Assembly (NCBI GenBank): GCA_021324435.1
Contig: JAJPIZ010000012.1
Location: 1 to 49,418 of the forward strand
Direction of reading: 5' to 3'
From: Anaerolineae bacterium
GTDB lineage: Bacteria; Chloroflexota; Anaerolineae; Anaerolineales; Villigracilaceae
DNA length: 49,418 nt
Both the position numbers and the translations under genes were made by a program. Below the pieces are notes generated by a model. It saw nothing but the letters and a program-made list of their open reading frames with translations. It did no database searches and was not told the origin of the DNA. This document shows positions 4,941-31,346 of the stretch, piece by piece (position 1 is the first letter of the stretch; every line of letters begins with the position of its first letter).

Positions 4941-6410
4941 ATGGCGACTCTCATCAAGAACGGAACTCTCATTACCGCCTCTGAAACGTTTCAATCTGAC
5001 ATTTTGATCGAAGGCGAGACAATTTCCCGCATCGGCGCGGACCTGAAAGCGGATTCCGTACAAGTGATTGACGCCGGCGGAAAACTGATTCTCCCCGGCG
5101 GCGTGGATCCGCATACTCACTTTGACCTGCCGATGTTCAACACAGTCTCTTCCGACGACCACTACACCGGTCACAAAGCTGCGGCCTTCGGCGGCACGAC
5201 CACGGTCATGGATTTTGTCCCATTAGAATCCCCTCTGCCCTCACCCCTGCGCCCCTCTCCCAAAATTGGGAGAGGGGATGGGGGTGAGGAAAATTTCAAA
5301 TACTCCGTTGACCTTTGGCTCCAAAAAGCCGAAAAAGCCGCGATAGATTATTCCTTCCACATGAATTTAACAAAATTCAATGACAAGATTGCGAAAGAGA
5401 TACCCTCTTTGCGCGAGATGGGCATCACCACGCTCAAAGTCTTCACCGCCTACAATGGCCGCCTGCGCCTCGACGATGGGAGCATCTTCAAAGCTTTGCG
5501 GATTGCCAAAGAAAACGGAATGCTGGTCATGGTTCATTGCGAGAACGGCGATGTCATTGATGTGTTGGTTGCTGACGCACTGGCTTCTGGACACTTGACT
5601 CCCGAATGGCACGCGTTGACGCGTCCCGCGTGGGGAGCGGTCGAAGCAACGCTTCACATGGCCGCCATGGCCGAACAAGCCGACGCGTCGGTGTACATCG
5701 TCCACATGAACGCAGGCGGCGAAGTGGACATGCTCAAGTATGCGCGCGAACGCGGCGTCAAAGTGATGGGCGAGACGTGTCCGCAATATCTGTTCTTCAC
5801 GATTGACGATTTGCGCAAACCCGACGGCGCGAAGTGGATCTGTTCGCCGCCGATGCGCTCGAAGGAAGATAACGCCCGAATTTGGGAAGGGTTGTTGCAG
5901 GGGATTTTGCAGACAATAGGCACGGATCATTGTCCGTTCTATTTTGATGGAACCCGCCCCATCGTCTATGAAGGACGCGAGGTCGCCATCCCGGGCAAAG
6001 AATTGGGCAAAGATGATTTCACCAAAATTCCAAACGGCCTGCCGGGAGTCGGTGATCGTCTGCCAATCATGTGGACGCATGGCGTGCGCGCGGGGAGAAT
6101 CACCGCCAATCAATTCGTCGCGTATAACAGCACGAACCCCGCAAAGATTTTTGGTTTGTATCCGCGCAAGGGCGCGCTGTTGCCCGGCTCCGACGCGGAC
6201 ATCGCGATCTGGGATCCGGAGAAGCGCGTGAAGTATGGTGTGGCGCACGCGCATCATCGCACAGACTATAACTTGTATGAAGGCTGGGAATTGGTCGGTT
6301 ATCCCGAGAAAGTTTTCCTGCGCGGCACGTTGATTGTGGATGGCGAGAAGTGGTTGGGGAAATCGGGAGGTGGAAAGTTTTTGAAGCGAGGAGAGGGGCA
6401 AATCTTATGA
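4941..6410 (+). CDS. dihydropyrimidinase / D-hydantoinase
   Basis: A 489-residue cyclic amidohydrolase that hydrolyses dihydropyrimidines or 5-substituted hydantoins. The metal site is complete by eye: HxH in 'GGVDPHTHFDLP', the lysine that becomes carboxylated in 'TTLKVFTAYNG', His in 'VHCENGD' and 'VHMNAGGE', and Asp in 'GTDHCPF'. The start at 4941 has TAGGAGA just upstream. It follows the SLC13-type permease by 7 bases, so the two are probably co-transcribed. A loop at about residues 94-118 is not normal for the family and is encoded by a palindromic repeat at 5238-5289 that keeps the frame open. The C terminus is intact and overlaps the end of a convergent broken gene. Confidence 0.9.
   Translation: MATLIKNGTLITASETFQSDILIEGETISRIGADLKADSVQVIDAGGKLILPGGVDPHTHFDLPMFNTVSSDDHYTGHKAAAFGGTTTVMDFVPLESPLPSPLRPSPKIGRGDGGEENFKYSVDLWLQKAEKAAIDYSFHMNLTKFNDKIAKEIPSLREMGITTLKVFTAYNGRLRLDDGSIFKALRIAKENGMLVMVHCENGDVIDVLVADALASGHLTPEWHALTRPAWGAVEATLHMAAMAEQADASVYIVHMNAGGEVDMLKYARERGVKVMGETCPQYLFFTIDDLRKPDGAKWICSPPMRSKEDNARIWEGLLQGILQTIGTDHCPFYFDGTRPIVYEGREVAIPGKELGKDDFTKIPNGLPGVGDRLPIMWTHGVRAGRITANQFVAYNSTNPAKIFGLYPRKGALLPGSDADIAIWDPEKRVKYGVAHAHHRTDYNLYEGWELVGYPEKVFLRGTLIVDGEKWLGKSGGGKFLKRGEGQIL
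5238..5289. repeat. palindromic repeat inserted in frame in the hydantoinase gene
   Basis: A 52-base two-part palindrome. The inner arms, CCCCTCTCCCAA and TTGGGAGAGGGG, are separated by AA; the outer arms are CCTCACCCC and GGGGTGAGG. It is translated as a Pro/Ser- then Gly-rich loop. A diverged relative lies in the intergenic region at 16302-16355. Confidence 0.85.
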
Positions 6411-15418: not shown

Positions 15419-16297
15419 ATGTATCAAGTGTCACCTATCTGGGCAGAAGAATTTATGGATGATATTAGAGGCGCTTTTCATCGGAAGACTGCATGGGCGG
15501 CGATTGCGCTTCTTTTGATTCTCCGTATTCCATTTTCCGTGTTTATCACATACGCTTATCCAAACGGCGAACAGTGGGGGCCTACGATTTTTCAAGTTGG
15601 CACCTATTTGCTGATTGTTTTTTTGATTTGGTGGGAACGCGAGATTCTCGCGGATTTCCATGTGGATATGCTGGCATTGATCATGATTTTGATTTTCAAA
15701 CCCGCGCAGACGCTGATCCTGCGTTATTTGGGAATTGATATTCCGCTGGCATTTCCGCGTCCCGCCGGACTTTTGATCTGGGCCATCGCCATTGGGCTGA
15801 TCATCGCTCTGTGGCGGAGCGGCTACAAGCCCGCGCGCATCGGCCTGTCATCTTTAGGTTGGCTCGCCGCAGGATTGATGTTTGGATTTGTGATTTCCGC
15901 TCTGCCGGACTTAGATGTGTTTCAATCTAACGCGAATCTCGGGGGCCGCGATTACTCCAGTCTCTCCGCGGTCACTCGGTCAACAGGCCTGGCATTCATG
16001 TATCAACTTGGATTTGCGGCGATTTCCGAAGAGCCGCTTTTTCGCGGGTTTCTATGGGGATACCTGCGAAGGCTTGGCTGGCGCGAAATCTATGTTTGGC
16101 TTGCTCAGGCCGCGCTGTTCATGAGCGCTCATTTGTATTTCAAAGATGCCGTGCCATTCAATTTTTGGATCGCGGTCCCAGCAGGTGGATTGCTCTTTGG
16201 TCTTCTGGCTTGGCGCTCGCGTTCCATTGTCCCGGGAATGATGGCGCACGCGGCGTACAATGCCGGAGTCTATGTGATTTTGATGAAGTTGATTTGA
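15419..16297 (+). CDS. CPBP (CAAX/Abi) intramembrane metalloprotease
   Basis: A polytopic membrane protein of 292 residues, or 280 if ATG 15455 is used. The catalytic motifs of the CPBP family are present: EExxxR in 'SEEPLFRGFLWGYLRR', a His in 'FMSAHLYF', and a His/Asn pair in 'MMAHAAYNAG'. Members cleave membrane substrates or protect against self-produced bacteriocins; the substrate here is unknown. Neither start has a good Shine-Dalgarno. The first ATG fits a plus-strand TATAAT at 15394. Confidence 0.87.
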   Translation: MYQVSPIWAEEFMDDIRGAFHRKTAWAAIALLLILRIPFSVFITYAYPNGEQWGPTIFQVGTYLLIVFLIWWEREILADFHVDMLALIMILIFKPAQTLILRYLGIDIPLAFPRPAGLLIWAIAIGLIIALWRSGYKPARIGLSSLGWLAAGLMFGFVISALPDLDVFQSNANLGGRDYSSLSAVTRSTGLAFMYQLGFAAISEEPLFRGFLWGYLRRLGWREIYVWLAQAALFMSAHLYFKDAVPFNFWIAVPAGGLLFGLLAWRSRSIVPGMMAHAAYNAGVYVILMKLI

Positions 16298-16301
16298 TAT
16301 T

Positions 16302-16355
16302 CCCTCATCCCCGACCCTCTCCCTCGCGGGGGATGGATGGGGGGAGGGGTGTGAG
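16302..16355. repeat. diverged copy of the palindromic repeat in the hydantoinase gene
   Basis: CCCTCATCCCCGACCCTCTCCC is followed by imperfect GGGGGATGGATGGGGGGAGGGG and GTGAG. It has the same order of outer and inner arms as 5238-5289, here between convergent genes. Confidence 0.7.
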
Positions 16356-16438: not shown

Positions 16439-18001
16439 TTACTTGTTGTATTCGGCGATGAGTTGCTGAAACTTGGGATCGTTGCGGATGAAGTCAAGAT
16501 CGGGATCGTGCAAAACCCAATCCACGCGGGTCTGCTGATTCTCAAGGGCAACGCGAAGCAATTCAATGGCTCGATCTGCGTTGCCGCGGATGGCTTCCAG
16601 GCACGCGCGGTTGTACTCGTTTTCGCTGTCGTAGATGTTTTTCATGGCTTTGTTGATGTGATTTTGGGCGAGTTCTTCCAATCCTAATTTTTTGAAATAA
16701 CCTGCCAGAGTGGCATGCGCCAGGCTGTGATCGGGGTTCAGCTCAATTACGCGTTGGAATGCAAATATCGCGTCTTCGTCACGGCCTTCAGCCGCGTAAG
16801 CCAGACCGAGATGGTGATGATAGAACGCCTTGGAGGGGTCCACGGAAATGGCCTGTTGGTAGGCCAGGATCGCGTCCTTGTACATACCGGCAGATTTATA
16901 GAGCGTTCCCAGCGTGTCCCACGCGAATCCGTTTTTGGGGTTGACCTGAACAACGCGCTTGATTTTTTCGATGTCCAGTTGGAGGCGGATCATCTCCGGA
17001 GATTCGACTTCCGGTGACTCGGTGGCAGGCTGAACATCCAATTCGATTTTTTGCATCGTGCCCGGCTTATCTTCCTGGAGCGCGACAATGAAAGGCAGTG
17101 TCGGAGACGGCTCTTCAACATCCACATCAACGGGTTGTAACGCCCTTTCCGTTCGCTCTTCGGTCTTGACGTCACTGGCCTTTGCTGTGAGCAGGGGAGT
17201 GTATGTAGGCGGCTTGGATTCCGGAAACGAGGGTACGCTCGCCACTGGCGATGACTGACTCGACTCGCTCAGCGGTTCCTGTTTTTCGACCCCTTCAAGC
17301 GGTTCCGGGATGGGCAACCAGACTGCCAGATCATCGCCCTCTACTTTGGGAAACAAGATGTCATTGTCTTCGTCCGGTTCCGCAGCTGAGTCGGAATTCT
17401 CGTCGAAATCTACCTCCGTCCAGGTCGGCGTATTGGCGTCGTCGGGGACTTCCGACGTGGCTTGCTCGTACCAGGCCGGGTCAGCCTGGACCCAGGAGGC
17501 GGACTCTTCATCAGAAAGCGGAGTCGGCACCTCGTCCAGATTGGAGGCGGGTGTTGAATCAACTTCGTCGTCCGGCTGATCCTCCGCGTCTGTTTTTGAG
17601 TCTTCATGAGTTGGCGCGCTTTCCGCAGAATCAACGGAACTGTAGAGCAATTGACCGGGGTCTTCGCGCTCTCCCGCTCGTTCGGGATTCAATTCGTCCG
17701 CGCGTTGATACGCCACCACCGCGCGTTGATAATCTTTCAAGTGGCGGTACACATTGCCAAGCCTGTTCCAGGATATGGCCTTTTCATCGTCGTCCATCAG
17801 GAGTTCGATGCTTCGCTTGTAAAGGTCAATCGCTTCCGAATATTTTCCCTGTTGAACATAGGCGAGAGCCAGATTGCTGTACGGCCTTCCGTAACTGTTG
17901 TCCAATTGAATGGATCGGTTGTAGGCGTAGATGGCCTGGTTGTACGCGCCGGACATAAAATACAAATTGCCTAACTCATTCCAAAGTTCATGCTCACTCA
18001 T
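16439..18001 (-). CDS. TPR protein, last gene of the ATPase/TPR operon
   Basis: A 520-residue protein. Residues about 1-108 hold one copy of the TPR supermodule shared by the operon ('LWNELGNLYF...SWNRLGNVYRH...ADELNPE'). Residues about 110-335 are an acidic, Pro/Ser/Glu-rich disordered linker. Residues about 337-520 hold further TPRs and a tail ('DLDFIRNDPKFQQLIAEYNK') resembling the C terminus of the TPR protein at 28513. There is no signal or membrane helix, so it is probably a cytosolic scaffold. GGAGGATCCT precedes the ATG at 18001, which lies 13 bases after the previous stop. Confidence 0.85.
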   Translation of the reverse strand: MSEHELWNELGNLYFMSGAYNQAIYAYNRSIQLDNSYGRPYSNLALAYVQQGKYSEAIDLYKRSIELLMDDDEKAISWNRLGNVYRHLKDYQRAVVAYQRADELNPERAGEREDPGQLLYSSVDSAESAPTHEDSKTDAEDQPDDEVDSTPASNLDEVPTPLSDEESASWVQADPAWYEQATSEVPDDANTPTWTEVDFDENSDSAAEPDEDNDILFPKVEGDDLAVWLPIPEPLEGVEKQEPLSESSQSSPVASVPSFPESKPPTYTPLLTAKASDVKTEERTERALQPVDVDVEEPSPTLPFIVALQEDKPGTMQKIELDVQPATESPEVESPEMIRLQLDIEKIKRVVQVNPKNGFAWDTLGTLYKSAGMYKDAILAYQQAISVDPSKAFYHHHLGLAYAAEGRDEDAIFAFQRVIELNPDHSLAHATLAGYFKKLGLEELAQNHINKAMKNIYDSENEYNRACLEAIRGNADRAIELLRVALENQQTRVDWVLHDPDLDFIRNDPKFQQLIAEYNK

Positions 18002-18014
18002 AGGATCCTCCGTG

Positions 18015-20042
18015 CTACGAGGCGTAGCTGGGTTTGGGTTCCATGGCATAACTGCCCAGCAGGCTGAAGCGTGATTGCAAAGAGAGTGTAGTGTTGTCCG
18101 GGTCGAGTTCGTCCGCCCGCTGATACGAAGCGATCGCGTTGTCGTAATCGTTCAAGCGGCGATAAACATTGCCCAGGCGATTCCAGGAGATGGCCTTATC
18201 TTTTTCGCTGGCGAACAATTCGATACTGCGCTGGTAGAGCAGGATCGCTTCGACGAAACGTCCCTTTTGAACGTAAGCCAGCGCCAGATTGCTGTACGGC
18301 CAGGCGAACCAGCGATCCAGTTCGATTGCTTTGCTGTACGCCACGATCGCGTCATCAAACTCGCCGGTGTTGAAGTAGACATTGCCCAGTTCGTTCCACA
18401 CGTGAGCGTTCTTGGCGTCCACTTCGATTCGCAATTCGCCGGATGAGTCCATTTGCGCGGCGGGTTCCGGCGGAAGTGCGGGGCCGTGCTCCTCGGTTTG
18501 TTCATCCACCGATACAGCCACGTTGAGGGCCGCGGCGTTGTCTTTGAGATACTCTTCGTACGCAGCGTGGTCCGCGATGGAAAGATCATCCTGTGTTTGG
18601 TTGGCCGCCTCGGCAACTGTTTCCTCAGCCGCTTCGGCGTCTTCTTTGATGACGATCGTTTCCTCTTCGATGTGAATAACTTTGACTTCGCTCACAGGCG
18701 CTTGCGCCTCCACCTGGACCTCAGACCGGCTCTTTTCAACTTCAGTCGTCTCTGCGCTGACGGCTTCTGCACTGCTTGTCTCCTCCGCAATTGCCGGGGC
18801 AGATGACTCAACAGCCTCGGGAGTTGTTTCCCGTTCCGGCTCTGAGGCGGGAGTCTCTTCGGCCTGAGGTTCAGGCTCCTCGATAATGTCAGTCGTCTCT
18901 GTTGAAGTATTGATCGTCGAGACAGAGTCAGTGAACGTTTCAACTGTGGTTTGAACCGCGACTGTCACAGTCTCTTTTCGTGTGGCAACCGGAACTGTAA
19001 TGGATTCTTCGGAGGCGTTCTGCGCGGCTCTGTCGGTCGCTTCGCTGACGGCTTCAACCGGTTGTCCCGCGACCGCTGCATCGGCGGTTACTTCGACGAT
19101 TTGCTCTGAATTTTCCGCTACAGCGATCTTTGTCGCGGGTTGATCGGTTGCTTGTACAGCCTCCGCTTGCGCCTCAGCGACGACCTCCGTTGGGGCAGGT
19201 GACTCAATTTCCGCGACAACTTCGGCCACATTCTCCGCTTGAGCATCCGGCTGTGCTTCTGTAGAAACAGAACTTTCTGGTTGTGAATCAACTGCCGCGG
19301 GTTCTTCAGCCACAACTTCAGTGACTTCGGGCGATGTAGCGGGAGTCTCCACAACCGATTCGGTTGCTTCGGCTTGCGCCATTGTGGCCGCTTCTTCTGC
19401 GTGGCTTTCCTCGACGATTAATTGAATCGGGCTGAGTTCAACTTCCGCGGGCTGGCTCACCTTGGCCTCATTGTTGCCTTCTACAAGTGTGGGGCCCTCT
19501 TCGGCTTCGTCTAATTCATCGCGGAAGCCGGCATTCTCGGCATCCAGCTCATCCGCTTTTTGGAACGCTTGTACCGCCAGGTCGTACTGATTCAGTTTGC
19601 GGTACACGTTGCCCAAACGATTCCAGATGACGGCCTTGTCTTTGTCTTCTTCCACCAGGTCAACGCCGATCTGGTAGAGGGGAATTGCTTCCTCATGTTT
19701 GCCCTGCATTGTCAGGGCCAGCGCGAGGTTGCTGTACGCCCAGCCGAATTGTGGATTCAGTTCGATGGCTTGATGGAACGCGTCGGCCGCCTGATCATAG
19801 GCCTCGGACTGGAAATACGCGTTACCCAGTTCGAACCAGTTCTCCGCGTTGGCGGGGTCCAGTTCGATGGCCTTTTTGTAGGCTTCAATCGCTTCTTTGT
19901 GGCGGTCCTGTTTTTCAAAGACGTTGCCCAACCGAATCCACGGATTGATGAACCGCTTGTTGAATTCGATGGACTTTTCCTGATAAGCCACAACCGCGTT
20001 GAATATCTTTCCTAACTCATCCCAGAATTCATAGTTGCTCAT
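18015..20042 (-). CDS. TPR protein with a 360-residue disordered linker
   Basis: A 675-residue protein. Residues 1-180 are TPRs, including one operon-type supermodule (about 69-170). Residues about 180-540 are a low-complexity linker almost entirely Glu, Ala, Val, Thr, Ser, Pro and Gln. Residues about 545-650 carry a second supermodule ('VWNELGNVYF...SWNRLGNVYRR...ADELDPD'), followed by a short tail with 'RFSLLG' that matches 'RFSLLS' at the end of the 903-residue neighbour. The domain order suggests two binding heads on a flexible tether. The ATG at 20042 has GGAGGCAG upstream and comes 37 bases after the preceding stop. Confidence 0.85.
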   Translation of the reverse strand: MSNYEFWDELGKIFNAVVAYQEKSIEFNKRFINPWIRLGNVFEKQDRHKEAIEAYKKAIELDPANAENWFELGNAYFQSEAYDQAADAFHQAIELNPQFGWAYSNLALALTMQGKHEEAIPLYQIGVDLVEEDKDKAVIWNRLGNVYRKLNQYDLAVQAFQKADELDAENAGFRDELDEAEEGPTLVEGNNEAKVSQPAEVELSPIQLIVEESHAEEAATMAQAEATESVVETPATSPEVTEVVAEEPAAVDSQPESSVSTEAQPDAQAENVAEVVAEIESPAPTEVVAEAQAEAVQATDQPATKIAVAENSEQIVEVTADAAVAGQPVEAVSEATDRAAQNASEESITVPVATRKETVTVAVQTTVETFTDSVSTINTSTETTDIIEEPEPQAEETPASEPERETTPEAVESSAPAIAEETSSAEAVSAETTEVEKSRSEVQVEAQAPVSEVKVIHIEEETIVIKEDAEAAEETVAEAANQTQDDLSIADHAAYEEYLKDNAAALNVAVSVDEQTEEHGPALPPEPAAQMDSSGELRIEVDAKNAHVWNELGNVYFNTGEFDDAIVAYSKAIELDRWFAWPYSNLALAYVQKGRFVEAILLYQRSIELFASEKDKAISWNRLGNVYRRLNDYDNAIASYQRADELDPDNTTLSLQSRFSLLGSYAMEPKPSYAS

Positions 20043-20079
20043 TTCTGCCTCCGATCCGTTAATTAAGAGGGTGACTGGC

Positions 20080-22791
20080 TTAGCCACCAGGAACGTTGCT
20101 TAGCAAACTAAATCGAGTGCGTGTCGCAAGAGTAACGCCCTCATCTGCCAGCATGACCGCTTTTTGATACGCCTTGATGGCTTCGTCGTAGTTGTTGAGC
20201 CGGCGATAGGCGTTCCCAAGCCGATTCCACACAACGGCTTTGTCTTTGTTGTCATTGAGCAATTCGATGCTCTTCTGATGCAGAGGGATCGCCTCTGCCC
20301 ATTTGCCTTGCGAAGCGAGGACGCGCGCCAGATTGGTGTAGGGCCAGCCCGTTTCCGGGTCCAGTTTGATCGCCTGATTGAAGGCGTTGATCGCATCGTC
20401 GTATGATCCGGTCTTGAAGAAGAGTTCTCCCAGGTCATTCCATTCCTGCGCGTTCTTCGGTTGCTGATCGCCCTGGAAGGTATCGGCGCCATCGCGCATC
20501 CCGGCGGTTTCAGGGTCCAACTCGGCGGCTTTCTGATAGGCCGCGATCGCGTTGGGATAATCATTGATGCAACGATAAATATTTCCCAGGCCGTTCCACG
20601 AGATGGCTTTGTCTTTGTCCGAGGTCAACAGATCGAGACTCTTTTGATAAAGCAGAATCGCCTCAGCGTATTGGCTCTGTGTGAGATAAGTGAGTGCCAG
20701 GTTGGCGTACGGCCAGCCGAACGCAGGATCGAGTTGAATGGCTTTGTTGTAAGCGCGGATGGCATCTTCAAATTCGCCGCGCTTGAAGTGGACATTGCCT
20801 TTCTCGTTCCACACGTGCGAGTTTGTGCTGTCCGCCTTTGCCTCTTCCAGTTCATGGATTTCAAACTTCTTTGTTGAATTCATGTCAGGGATCGGCAACG
20901 GGTTTGGAGATGTGGGCTTGACCATAGGAACTCCTTCCACTTTGCTCGTAAACTGGACATTTGACTCTGTTTGTTTTGCAATCTCTTTGACCGATAAAAC
21001 CGGTTCAGCCTCGACCTTGTTGCGGAGCGCGGGATCGAGAATCCAGTATGGCATATCCGTTTGCTCGTTTGGCTCTATGGTCAACGCATCAGAATGGCCG
21101 GGCTGTGAGTCCTCGCTGACGGTTTGCGGCAAGACCTCTTGTGTGTCCACTTCGTGATTGGTATCTGCCTCCGGCGCGGACTCTTTCTGCGACTCCTGTT
21201 CGCTCGGTTGTGATGTCCGCAGTTCGAGCATGTCTGCGGTCTGATACGCCGCGATGGCATTGTCGTAATCGTTGATCTGCCGATACACATTTCCGAGTCG
21301 ATTCCAGGAGACTGCTTTGTCCTTGTTTTCTTTCAACAACTCAATGCTTCGCAGATACAGCGAAATGCTTTCCTGATATCGTCCCAGTTGGGTGTATGCC
21401 AGGGCCAGGTTGCTGTAGGCCCAGCCATAACTGCGGTCCAGTTCAATGGCTTTGGAAAACGCTTCCACCGCTTCCTCGAACGCCTCGCACTTCATGTGGA
21501 TCAACCCAAGTTCATTCCAAATCGTGCAGTTCTTGGAATCGAGCGATAGCGCTCGCTCATACGCCTTGATCGCCTCGCGGTATTTCTCCTGCTTTTCGTA
21601 CAAAGCGGCGAGTCTCAGCCACGGGGTGACATACTGCTTGTTCAACTCAATCGCTTTGTGATAAGCCTTCACGGCCTCATCCACGCGGCTGACGCTGGCA
21701 TAAACATCGCCTAATCCGCTCCATGGATGAGCGAAGGTCGGCATGAATTGGATGGACTTGCGATACGCCGCGATGGCGTCATCCACGTATCCGATTTTGT
21801 AGTAGACGTTGCCCAGTCCGTTCCAGCCAATCGGGTCCTGCGAATTGCATTCAATCGCCTTGAGGAAGGCGATGATCGCCTCGTCGTTTCGACCGATCTT
21901 CGCGCACAAATTCCCAAGATTGTTCCACGCGAAGATTTGATCGGGCGCCAGGCGGATGGCTTGTTTGTAGGCGTCAATTGCATCGTCAATTCGTTCCATG
22001 CTGGTCTTCACGAGGGCGATGGCGTTGAAACATTCGGCCTCAAACCAGTTGTCTTGCATCTTTCTAGCGATCTTCAGCGCGTCACGGAGTTGTTCGTCGG
22101 CTTTTTCGTAATCGCCTTTGCGCCAGTTCAGAACGCCCAACGTCAATAATAGATTGGCGCGGGTGGAACTGGCTTCCTCGCCCTTGGGAAGTTCGGTCAA
22201 TAGCGCCTCGCGCAGGGAGATTTTCGCGTCCGTATCCTCGAACTGATCGGTGTATTCGCCCGTTCCCTGCCAGGCAGAATCGAGGGCCTGTTGCAATACC
22301 TGCTCGGCCTTCGGAGATTCGACGAATTCAACCACACGATGGCGATATGCCCAAAAGTCCGGGGCGAAGCGTGCCAAATCCATGATTTCCTTTTGCGTAA
22401 GCCAGAAGATCACGCGGACTCGCTTTTCGATAAAGAATTCACGCTGGAGGTTCAACGCGGTGTAGATGTTGGATTGCTGACTGTGACCCCAGCGCAAACC
22501 ATCCACAAAGAAAGTCGTTGTGGCTGTCTCCTTGAATTCCTTCAGGAAACTGATGACGCCATCGGTCTCGGGATCCTTGATTCTCAAGCTCGAGACTCTC
22601 TGACCAAGGTCAATCAAATGATTGCCGAGGACGTTTCTCGCATCCGCGCGTACATAATCCGAACTGTACACCACCAACAGGATGCACGGTCTCTGCCACT
22701 TGATTGCGAGTTCCAGTTCCTTGACGAGAATTTCGATGCGCTCGTCAAAGGGCCTGAGTTCCTGCAAGGTTTTTGTACTGTGTTTAGTCAT
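20080..22791 (-). CDS. 903-residue TPR protein with STAND-like N-terminal domain
   Basis: Residues about 12-160 form an alpha/beta domain ending in 'ALNLQREFFIEKRVRVIFWL' and 'APDFWAYRHRVVEF'. Sequences of this kind occur in the NTPase part of STAND-type TPR proteins, but no Walker A motif is present; 'TTFFVDGLRWG' occupies the place of a Walker B strand. From about 210 come some fifteen TPRs, including three full copies of the operon supermodule (about 424-522, 660-765, 782-882), with a Ser/Glu/Gln-rich linker at 525-650. The ATG overlaps the ATPase gene's end by 8 bases. It may act as an adaptor that reads a signal and recruits partners. Confidence 0.87.
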   Translation of the reverse strand: MTKHSTKTLQELRPFDERIEILVKELELAIKWQRPCILLVVYSSDYVRADARNVLGNHLIDLGQRVSSLRIKDPETDGVISFLKEFKETATTTFFVDGLRWGHSQQSNIYTALNLQREFFIEKRVRVIFWLTQKEIMDLARFAPDFWAYRHRVVEFVESPKAEQVLQQALDSAWQGTGEYTDQFEDTDAKISLREALLTELPKGEEASSTRANLLLTLGVLNWRKGDYEKADEQLRDALKIARKMQDNWFEAECFNAIALVKTSMERIDDAIDAYKQAIRLAPDQIFAWNNLGNLCAKIGRNDEAIIAFLKAIECNSQDPIGWNGLGNVYYKIGYVDDAIAAYRKSIQFMPTFAHPWSGLGDVYASVSRVDEAVKAYHKAIELNKQYVTPWLRLAALYEKQEKYREAIKAYERALSLDSKNCTIWNELGLIHMKCEAFEEAVEAFSKAIELDRSYGWAYSNLALAYTQLGRYQESISLYLRSIELLKENKDKAVSWNRLGNVYRQINDYDNAIAAYQTADMLELRTSQPSEQESQKESAPEADTNHEVDTQEVLPQTVSEDSQPGHSDALTIEPNEQTDMPYWILDPALRNKVEAEPVLSVKEIAKQTESNVQFTSKVEGVPMVKPTSPNPLPIPDMNSTKKFEIHELEEAKADSTNSHVWNEKGNVHFKRGEFEDAIRAYNKAIQLDPAFGWPYANLALTYLTQSQYAEAILLYQKSLDLLTSDKDKAISWNGLGNIYRCINDYPNAIAAYQKAAELDPETAGMRDGADTFQGDQQPKNAQEWNDLGELFFKTGSYDDAINAFNQAIKLDPETGWPYTNLARVLASQGKWAEAIPLHQKSIELLNDNKDKAVVWNRLGNAYRRLNNYDEAIKAYQKAVMLADEGVTLATRTRFSLLSNVPGG

Positions 22792-24046
22792 CTAATAACT
22801 TCCTCAGTACAGGATGAACATCGCACCAATTTTCTCCATCGCGGTATTCCAGAAGAGCCAGCAATTGTAAAAGAGGCCTCAGGCGATCACTGTATTCGAG
22901 GCGGTTATTCTCGGCGACCTTTTTCAGTAGTTTGATGTCTTCCTTGTCCAGGATGCGCCTGTATTCATTCCTGATTTCCGTTGCGGCCCATTCGATGTCG
23001 GTGCTATCCAGCTTGCCGGCGTTCCGTCTTCGGGCGCGGCCGATCGCGGTCCGCATGATGCGAGCCATTTCGCGGAAGACTCCGCCGCTGTAACCGATCG
23101 CATCATCCAGCGCCCTGTCTTCGATCAGGTTGGGATGCATTCTGAGATGGACGAAGCGCTGAAGAGTCTTGTATCCCTCCGCGTGATGATCATTTGGATT
23201 GGTAGGCGTATGCAGATTGATGTTGGGCAGAAAGAGCGCCTGATCGCGGATGGAATCGAATTCCTTGCTGTAGAACAAAGCGCTGGAAACCGTGTAGACG
23301 ATGGCGCAATTGGGTTGCATCATGATCTCGCGCCGATCATGGAATATGTCGCGCGCTTTTTCCAAATCCGGCTTATCCATATCATCAATCAAGATGAGGG
23401 GGATAAGCCGCTCCTTGGTGTAAATGGCGGTGGCGATGTGGTTGATGATGGCGATCAGGCCCGTGATGTCTGTTTCGACCACTTGTCTCAGTTCGACGCG
23501 GGTGGCCGGCTCCAGTTTCATCTTCAGGCCGGCGTTCGCGAAGAACATATCTATGGAAGCGCCTAGCTCGATATTCGAGACACGGCCTTCGAGAATTGTA
23601 GAGATTTCCTTTTCGACCTTGCCCTTCCAACTGTTCAGTTCTTTGAGCAGTTGATCGGGCAACTCGCCGCCTCGTCTTCGGTACTCGCGGAATAACCGTC
23701 CGCCAATGGCAAGCAGGACATCCCTGAAGTCAATGTCAATGATGTCGGCTTCCTCGCGGATGCTGAAATTGATGGGCCAGTATTTCTTCTGAATCTGTGG
23801 GTTGCCCAGCAAGTGCAACAACTCGGTTGATTTTCCGCAACCTCTATGCCCGGAAAAGAAGAACTTGGGCGGACGATAGAATGGCGCCAACAGGGCGTCG
23901 GTGAGTTCGACGATCGGGTTGCCGGGCCTGTCAATGTAAAAAGGATTGGGTTTCCCGTTTTTCTCAGGCTTGAGTGGTAAATCCAATTCAAAGTTCAGCC
24001 AGGCCCTGTCAAAGTCTGTTGCGGTTATGTAATCGAAATTATTCAT
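22784..24046 (-). CDS. P-loop ATPase (AAA/STAND-like), first gene of the TPR operon
   Basis: A 420-residue ATPase. Walker A is 'GHRGCGKST' at about 66-74 and Walker B 'LILIDDMDK' at about 217-225, followed by a sensor-like strand 'IVYTVSSALFYS' near 249. The C-terminal 100 residues are helical and may be a winged helix ('GENWCDVHPVLRKLL'). The N terminus 'TATDFDRAWLNFEL' is family-like but unnamed. The order of elements fits ORC/STAND-clade AAA proteins used as molecular switches. It heads an operon with three TPR proteins. A palindrome 131 bases upstream of its ATG is shared with the mraZ-like gene. Confidence 0.88.
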   Translation of the reverse strand: MNNFDYITATDFDRAWLNFELDLPLKPEKNGKPNPFYIDRPGNPIVELTDALLAPFYRPPKFFFSGHRGCGKSTELLHLLGNPQIQKKYWPINFSIREEADIIDIDFRDVLLAIGGRLFREYRRRGGELPDQLLKELNSWKGKVEKEISTILEGRVSNIELGASIDMFFANAGLKMKLEPATRVELRQVVETDITGLIAIINHIATAIYTKERLIPLILIDDMDKPDLEKARDIFHDRREIMMQPNCAIVYTVSSALFYSKEFDSIRDQALFLPNINLHTPTNPNDHHAEGYKTLQRFVHLRMHPNLIEDRALDDAIGYSGGVFREMARIMRTAIGRARRRNAGKLDSTDIEWAATEIRNEYRRILDKEDIKLLKKVAENNRLEYSDRLRPLLQLLALLEYRDGENWCDVHPVLRKLLDD

Positions 24047-30821: not shown

Positions 30822-31346
30822 CTAGGGGTTGCGTGGACCGAGCGAGTATCCTTGCTGTTGACGCGTCAACCTGACGTACTCATTGATCATCTCATCAGGA
30901 TGAGGGCGCGCTCCTATGATGACCAAATACCCCGGCGCCCAGAAATCTTTTGACAGGTTATCGCGTTTAATCCGAGGAAAATTCTCGAATATTAATTTCG
31001 AAGTGTGCTGGCGAAAGATTCGCATAAAATGTGCAGGTGGCGTGGTGGGATGAACATATAGTATCCATTGCAGATATTCCGGGTTGACAGACAGGAAATC
31101 CAGCCGCCATCCGAAGGATATGCAAATCTGCGGCATCCATTGATGAAGTTGATCCGCCAAATCCCCAATCAAATAATGAACGCCAAACCTCGGAATCAGC
31201 AGGCAGGCGTAGGAAATTTCGTAAAGGTTGGTGGATACTTGCTCGAAAACAACGTGAGAATCAGATTCAGAGACGGAACTAGGACCACGAGTTTCGCGGC
31301 TACTACGTGGATTGATCAATGTCGTCTCTTGAGTGCTTCTATCCAC
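30822..31346 (-). CDS. catalytically dead Y1 (IS200-like) transposase homologue
   Basis: A 174-residue protein with a TnpA/Y1 fold outline from about residue 41: 'YEISYACLLIPRFGVHYLIG', 'NPEYLQWILYVHPTTPPAHF', 'FRQHTSKLIFENFP', 'FWAPGYLVI' and 'INEYVRLTRQQQ'. In active enzymes the second segment reads PDHVHLL; here both metal-binding histidines are replaced (EYLQ), though the late Tyr remains. It cannot be a working HUH enzyme. The first 40 residues are a Ser/Thr/Glu-rich extension. Start GTG at 31346; there is no ATG before the fold. No terminal palindromes of an IS200 element are seen, so it is likely domesticated, perhaps for DNA or RNA binding. Confidence 0.72.
   Translation of the reverse strand: MDRSTQETTLINPRSSRETRGPSSVSESDSHVVFEQVSTNLYEISYACLLIPRFGVHYLIGDLADQLHQWMPQICISFGWRLDFLSVNPEYLQWILYVHPTTPPAHFMRIFRQHTSKLIFENFPRIKRDNLSKDFWAPGYLVIIGARPHPDEMINEYVRLTRQQQGYSLGPRNP

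Follow-up and report, generated by a model that had tools for sequence, protein, structure and literature searches.

How does a perfect double palindrome come to lie within the coding sequence of an enzyme while leaving its reading frame open, and what carried it there? The question is posed by a hydantoinase gene in the window analyzed here, by which we mean the whole stretch of 49,418 nucleotides from an Anaerolineae bacterium. A sequence-only reading of this DNA had proposed that a 52-base double palindrome is translated in frame inside the gene, and in this it was right: the arms lie where it placed them and the frame runs through. The features concerned are these.

4941-6410, plus strand: D-hydantoinase/dihydropyrimidinase gene, host of the insertion (489 aa; ATG at 4941; 507.7 bits against the NCBIfam D-hydantoinase model TIGR02033, cut-off 393.25; PDB relatives 3sfw, 1yny and 1k1d)
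5238-5289: double palindrome, by its sequence of Box C/PIT/TM type, within the translated SPLPSPLRPSPKIGRGDGGEE (arm pairing, shuffles, motif fit)
5239-5247: left outer arm, CCTCACCCC, pairing with the right outer arm
5281-5289: right outer arm, GGGGTGAGG, pairing with the left outer arm
5252-5263: left inner arm, CCCCTCTCCCAA, pairing with the right inner arm
5266-5277: right inner arm, pairing with the left inner arm
5228-5239: third pyrimidine block, 92% complementary to 5268-5279

The outer arms are 100% complementary to each other, as are the 12-nt inner arms. The inner-hairpin pattern occurs at one place in the window, both strands considered, and nowhere in 100 dinucleotide shuffles (mean 0, maximum 0); a 52-bp element with two perfect nested hairpins is far beyond chance. 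The reading frame of the hydantoinase gene is uninterrupted across it, and alignment to solved hydantoinases, by which the loop was placed, puts the extra residues between the MDF segment, which they directly follow, and the stretch aligned with ESLHSAIATWHEKA. The closest named relatives of the gene come from metagenome-assembled genomes of Anaerolineales and other Chloroflexi. Compared with one close relative (L076), the window gene has a net insert of 57 nt, and the third pyrimidine block probably belongs to the insertion.

The insertion is not peculiar to this gene. Among 95 distinct orthologues (110 hydantoinase loci less 15 duplicates), 28 carry at least five extra amino acids at the same loop and 67 do not, the usual loop being short (for example, VVLEDKGFQYS); elsewhere in the same 95 rows, inserts are found internally in two and at the C-terminal end in one. 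The orthologues' alternatives at the loop include TPRPSPTGRGAGVR, SPSPSGRGQGEG and SPLPEGEGSGVR, and their translations show two reading frames, PSP/GRG and PLP/GEG. Not all of these inserts are of one kind: that of L114, a single relative, is the unrelated palindrome GCGCTGAGCGGAGCGCCAGCGC, those of L068 and L106 are other pyrimidine-rich hairpins, and in those of L065 and L071 no palindrome of the Box C/PIT/TM family was found. In 17 filled/empty pairs the net length difference is always a multiple of three, from 30 to 57 nt, and comparison of these pairs showed no consistent target-site duplication at the insert ends. None of the 110 loci holds an insert of the size of the DUF559 nuclease domain considered below, all being too short. 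On the orthologue tree, filled and empty rows are intermixed down to sister pairs, and the 24-25 changes between the two states compare with a mean of 24.4 (range 19-28) for shuffled labels, a soft count, since the tree was a quick build with the loop excluded, 27 of its 92 forks open and some branches long. The hydantoinase loop is an insertion hotspot.

One might suppose that a single old insertion in the hydantoinase ancestor was followed by many later losses; GDF does end many of the filled rows, and the neighboring filled rows L077/L081, L095/L105 and L088/L091 may each represent one event. However, the majority form is empty, the loop is short in the solved bacterial enzymes too, and the filled rows are unlike in frame, in sequence and even in repeat family, which leaves this account with only the faintest probability. 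Alternatively, lineages might acquire a Pro/Gly-rich loop as a tuner of substrate access, an idea we regard as highly improbable, even though the insert lies near a loop that shapes substrate entry in hydantoinases; the region of the insert presumably corresponds to the second "stereochemistry gate loop". Three such loops have been named in hydantoinases, and the first and third located, in the accessible text of PMC7175128. Against an adaptive origin stand the widely varying lengths and sequences of the inserts, the lack of the extended loop in most lineages, and the same pattern in MetH and ValS, whose functions are unrelated. That 5238-5289 is an in-frame, recurrently gained palindrome is, by comparison, nearly certain. 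The sequence-only reading thus stands in its core, an inserted in-frame repeat that shows how such a family adds protein segments, as the 67 orthologues lacking the insert attest; it had allowed that a loop conserved in distant orthologues would point instead to an old part of the enzyme, and both the solved bacterial enzymes and most orthologues are short there. Where it falls short is that the event is not confined to one gene or lineage, the same place having been filled repeatedly, and that, as described below, such landings in coding DNA are not rare in this genome.

What kind of repeat is this? Judged by its sequence, the window copy fits the Box C/PIT/TM family of intrastrand-triplex palindromes. 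The published search rule for the TM motif specifies a pyrimidine block followed by two purine blocks, with stems of 6-15 nt, at most one mismatch and loops of 1-6 nt (PMC4666352, accessible text); the window copy reads CCCTCTCCC-N6-GGGAGAGGG-N5-GGGTGAGGA, with a single mismatch in the final block. The E. coli subtype TMECO, which has exactly three nucleotides between the purine blocks, was considered and rejected; because the window spacer is 5, the copy is filed under the wider TM motif. Across the genome, allowing up to two substitutions and spacers of 2-7, the three-block pattern is present to the right in 37 of 54 copies and to the left in 32.

These 54 copies were catalogued from stretches fetched around BLAST and hairpin matches, rather than by a whole-genome scan, with one mismatch allowed per arm. 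In the host genome (3.11 Mb in 51 contigs), BLAST with the element returned 70 matches, both strands counted, and a search for the exact inner hairpin hit 35 places, as against none for a reversed-pattern control. A second copy lies in the window itself:

16302-16353 (right end approximate): diverged intergenic copy between CAAX-protease-like and TPR genes

This diverged relative had been noted before, and it does lie between two ORFs (15419-16297 and 16439-18049); it fits the three-block pattern only when up to two substitutions and spacers of 2-7 are allowed. Adjoining it is a run of large genes on the minus strand (16439-24046), at least two of which (16439-18049 and 20080-22791) are full of TPR repeats.

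Landings in coding sequence are anything but exceptional: 23 of the 54 catalogued copies lie in frame in 20 likely genes, their coding status being judged by a codon-usage score trained on the window genes, and 18 of the 20 ORFs match a known family. These 18 encode the hydantoinase, CODH/ACS, PurQ, an F420 oxidoreductase, MetH, dihydropteroate synthase (folP), mevalonate kinase, ValS, gamma-glutamyltransferase, MurE, Mfd, SecA, a CrtO-like protein, a UvrD-like helicase, a DNA methylase, a PyrD-like protein, a HAD phosphatase and an FAD-binding subunit. For three of them (methylase, PyrD-like protein and UvrD-like helicase) the palindrome is outside the matched domain, and in the helicase the alignment to a relative continues on both sides of it. 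In 61 genomes (this one and 60 relatives), perfect hairpins number from 0 to 126 per genome, with at least one in 48.

The methionine synthase gene of the same genome introduces a second component. Its MetH (L232, G000:C19:109500-115000) holds, in one open frame of 1407 aa, five translated palindromes and, lying among them in a linker, a whole DUF559 (PF04480) domain. At 8 of 30 metH loci, in this genome and seven relatives, metH and DUF559 share one open frame; at least one case each of a DUF559 domain in one frame with its host and with hairpins on both sides was found in metH, valS, uvrA, UvrD-like, MTHFR, PIG-L, APH-like and DUF1156 genes, some of these frames extending past a contig end. 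The uvrA-DUF559 frame occurs in two genomes, the domain is N-terminal in the MTHFR case, and two type ISP genes contain DUF559 in frame with a hairpin on one side only. PF04480 also gave six weak matches to large proteins (L225-L230, several helicase-like), outside the near/far hairpin test; no palindrome was seen in their translated flanks. In the nested domains the residues E16, D45, E56, D58, H62 and D71 (G000 numbering) are present in 18 of 18 copies, as in free-standing ones, and by analogy with the Vsr/EDxHD group these six are probably catalytic. The nearest solved structure to DUF559 is 3hrl, an "Endonuclease-Like Protein".

Solo palindromes and nuclease-bearing units occupy the same sites. 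The valS site holds a solo palindrome in this genome (G000) and a DUF559 unit in G043, the UvrD-like gene a solo palindrome here and a DUF559 unit in G027, and the metH DUF559 site solo palindromes in G003, G009, G010 and others. When inserts are counted above 20 aa in MetH and above 16 aa in ValS, the 30 metH loci comprise 8 with DUF559, 12 with other inserts and 10 empty, and the 31 valS loci 1, 20 and 10, respectively. The pyrimidine/purine motif is present in 5 of the 12 other MetH inserts, in 7 of the 20 ValS inserts and in one "empty" ValS locus, the remaining inserts being other repeats or unclear; because only part of the inserts carry the motif, these sites must accept more than one kind of DNA. 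The ValS linker of G005, G004 and G022 (L236, L241 and L249) holds in-frame palindromic or repeat families of GGAATCAGG, ACGGT and GGTAATCAGG type, so that the ValS hotspot is open to several repeat families.

Is the association of DUF559 with these palindromes general? Among 84 DUF559 loci (all matches with E up to 2.9e-26, weaker and broken matches excluded, and not all independent, G009 and G030 apparently sharing one contig), 59 have a pyrimidine/purine hairpin within 250 bp, 32 of them on both sides, and 25 have none; hairpin density is 3.50/kb within 250 bp versus 0.078/kb at 600-1400 bp, a 45-fold difference. A phylum-wide sample of 25 loci, with L365 left out as it lies at a contig edge, gave hairpins at 21 (16 on both sides) and densities of 4.61 versus 0.16 per kb. 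Outside the phylum, hairpins were found at 14 of 17 loci (8 on both sides; 3.88 versus 0.37 per kb), namely at 11 of 11 in Pseudomonadota, 2 of 2 in Deinococcota, 1 of 3 in Cyanobacteriota and 0 of 1 in Bacillota. This last sample took 16 of 43 plasmid-collection records, chosen before their flanks were viewed, with one record per genus except in Azospirillum and Deinococcus (two apiece); E. coli ycjD was added because a listed TM motif lay nearby. As controls, Y1_Tnp genes (22 of the matches found in the genome searches) had hairpins at 2 loci, both of other types (0.28/kb), and hydantoinase gene flanks at 1 of 25 (0.08/kb). The palindromes recur, and they are linked to DUF559 in several phyla.

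Individual cases add detail. In E. coli MG1655 the exact TM consensus lies at 1351205-1351239 (L353:1706-1740), about 168 bp past the stop of ycjD, a DUF559 gene; with 23 motifs in 4.64 Mb, we estimate arithmetically that a TM motif would fall this close by chance less than one time in 100. A second, degenerate hairpin overlaps the 3' end of ycjD in E. coli K-12. In Sphingomonas there are 18 copies of an arm variant of its own, four of them beside or at the DUF559 gene, versus 3 of the common type, and arm type tracks the DUF559 companion both there and in A. lipoferum. The hairpins beside DUF559 in Azospirillum brasilense (W01) are unlike the common repeat of that record, and in Photobacterium hairpins number 2 near and 6 far from DUF559 and so are unspecific to the gene. 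TM-type palindromes surround the DUF559 gene of L188 (G054:C367) at a spacing of mostly 95-99 bp.

At the level of whole genomes, the 12 of 61 without DUF559 have 0-3 perfect hairpins and the 49 with it 0-126 (one-sided p 1.4e-4, kinship ignored); the same comparison within the window's family gives p 0.0055, kinship again ignored. Palindrome counts correlate with DUF559 at 0.45 and, weakly, with Y1_Tnp at 0.30. Even so, the presence of DUF559 is not sufficient for palindrome abundance, since G012 combines 8 DUF559 with 5 palindromes and G006 4 with 1, and G029 is the opposite exception, with 105 palindromes and a single weak, helicase-embedded DUF559 match.

Overall, we favor the explanation, to which we assign a probability of roughly 0.57, that 5238-5289 represents the Box C/PIT/TM family as a solo copy and behaves as a non-autonomous mobile palindrome. 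The autonomous form is probably a palindrome-DUF559-palindrome unit, a small nuclease of PD-(D/E)XK type flanked by the same kind of hairpin. From linkage and nesting we infer that DUF559 may be the enzyme that mobilizes the palindromes, a claim that we put just short of even odds. Consider how such an element might move: DUF559 would nick or break DNA, possibly where hairpins form or where a target site lies, and the palindrome, sometimes together with the nuclease gene, would be copied into the break during repair. Copying by this break-repair route is the doubtful part of the scheme. With a pyrimidine run leading into a purine run, the unit often has two stop-free frames that give linkers, so that loops and linkers can retain inserts whose length is a multiple of three. 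A palindrome so placed would be translated as a Pro/Ser-Gly/Arg-rich linker, and selection would keep the in-frame copies in loops and linkers, creating hotspots such as the hydantoinase loop and the MetH and ValS linkers. Survival of stop-poor copies as in-frame linkers is what the genes described above display.

The principal challenge to this scheme is that DUF559 is not the mover, the palindromes spreading instead through accidents of replication or repair (template switching, microhomology) and DUF559 being a host repair nuclease or cargo. Unrelated repeat families at the same protein sites are compatible with site choice by selection alone, and G029 is rich in palindromes without a clear DUF559 gene; the 25 DUF559 loci without a nearby hairpin count against the favored scheme. 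In E. coli, moreover, TM motifs are tied to local instability (PMC4666352, accessible text). What is available of a study of Caulobacter VsrA, a DUF559 protein, proposes that it is a Vsr-like mismatch-repair nuclease acting on T-G mismatches at methylated cytosines, and describes a DNA damage response in some cells and a proposed ability to cause double-strand breaks (PMC12907096); a Deinococcus DUF559 gene appears among induced repair genes in the accessible part of another report (PMC6712171). The VsrA proposal slightly lowers the odds of DUF559 as mover and raises those of a repair or cargo role. Nonetheless, accidents do not readily account for linkage far above controls in Chloroflexota (59/84 and 21/25), Pseudomonadota (11/11) and Deinococcota (2/2), or for in-frame hairpin-DUF559-hairpin units in eight kinds of host gene, and on this evidence we consider them an unlikely explanation. 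The other candidate, a REP-type element moved by RAYT, an IS200-like Y1 transposase, is improbable. It can draw on the presence of Y1_Tnp in 57 of the 61 genomes searched and on the weak correlation already given, but hairpins accompany just two of the 22 control genes, both of other types, and no transposase flanked by the repeats was found there; the window's own Y1_Tnp gene has no such palindrome alongside. That gene, a RAYT-type IS200-like Y1_Tnp at 30822-31346 on the minus strand, is one of two in the genome. The tetranucleotide GTAG lies within 35 nt of 10 of the 54 palindrome copies versus 5 of 54 at 300 nt, and CGTC at 18 versus 24.

Regardless of the enzyme responsible, the palindromes and their DUF559 companion invite comparison with several known systems, among them Box C/PIT/TM itself. 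The window family shares its blocks, CCCTCNCCC..GGGNGAGGG..GGGNGAGGG (pyrimidine-purine-purine), its many copies per genome and its very wide taxonomic spread. The TM motif is reported from more than 260 genomes, with E. coli copies always intergenic, without mobility genes nearby and of unclear origin (Holder et al. 2015, PMC4666352, accessible text). Unlike those copies, many of ours lie in frame within genes, an extra left arm often makes the palindrome double, the second spacer exceeds theirs in length, and DUF559 genes are found alongside. The VsrA protein shares its domain with the nested DUF559, but its proposed role is repair and the available text does not mention palindromes (PMC12907096). 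A literature search that covered subscription journals thinly did not tie DUF559 to these palindromes, and the titles it returned on intrastrand triplexes from 2014 on included none on repeat mobility. In-frame palindromes are thus already known; the literature searched contained neither the wide recurrence at the same site, nor the TM family within coding DNA, nor a link to DUF559. In its broadest form our proposal is that DUF559 proteins are the missing mobility enzymes of Box C/PIT/TM across Bacteria, that palindrome-DUF559-palindrome units form a new, splicing-free homing-like class, and that solos are non-autonomous copies or scars; we advance this tentatively, at somewhat less than even odds.

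Rickettsia palindromic elements (RPE) offer a precedent for the coding copies, being in-frame palindromes in genes likely to encode functional proteins (PMC3733652). As there, the palindromes described here lie within ORFs whose frame and family match are kept (23 of 54 copies in 20 ORFs, 18 of them family-matched); the likeness is one of description, and the two differ in that the organisms are others and the accessible text names no companion nuclease for RPE. The same source describes REPs within ORFs, several of them in repair genes including uvrA, UvrD and recB, and a REP at about the same site in recB of two Xanthomonas species (Di Nocera et al. 2013, PMC3733652, available portion). The REP/RAYT "REPtrons" of that report resemble the present family in their short palindromes, some inside ORFs, and in a companion gene flanked by repeats. 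Here, by contrast, the companion is a DUF559 nuclease rather than a tyrosine transposase, and the GTAG/CGTC tag is not clear.

The origin and mobility of TM repeats, which Holder et al. left open, become directly testable through a linked nuclease gene. The recurrent in-frame inserts and their empty sister enzymes, moreover, form a natural series for asking in what way selfish DNA brings linkers and whole domains into enzymes that are conserved and often essential. The system also resembles the EDxHD/Vsr-like homing endonucleases, which are small nucleases in conserved genes and share the E, D, H and D residues. As in a homing element, the nuclease occupies a constant position in its host gene while alleles in other genomes have that position empty, as the metH and valS counts indicate, but the DUF559 flanks read as palindromes, and the nested domain seems to stay in the host protein.
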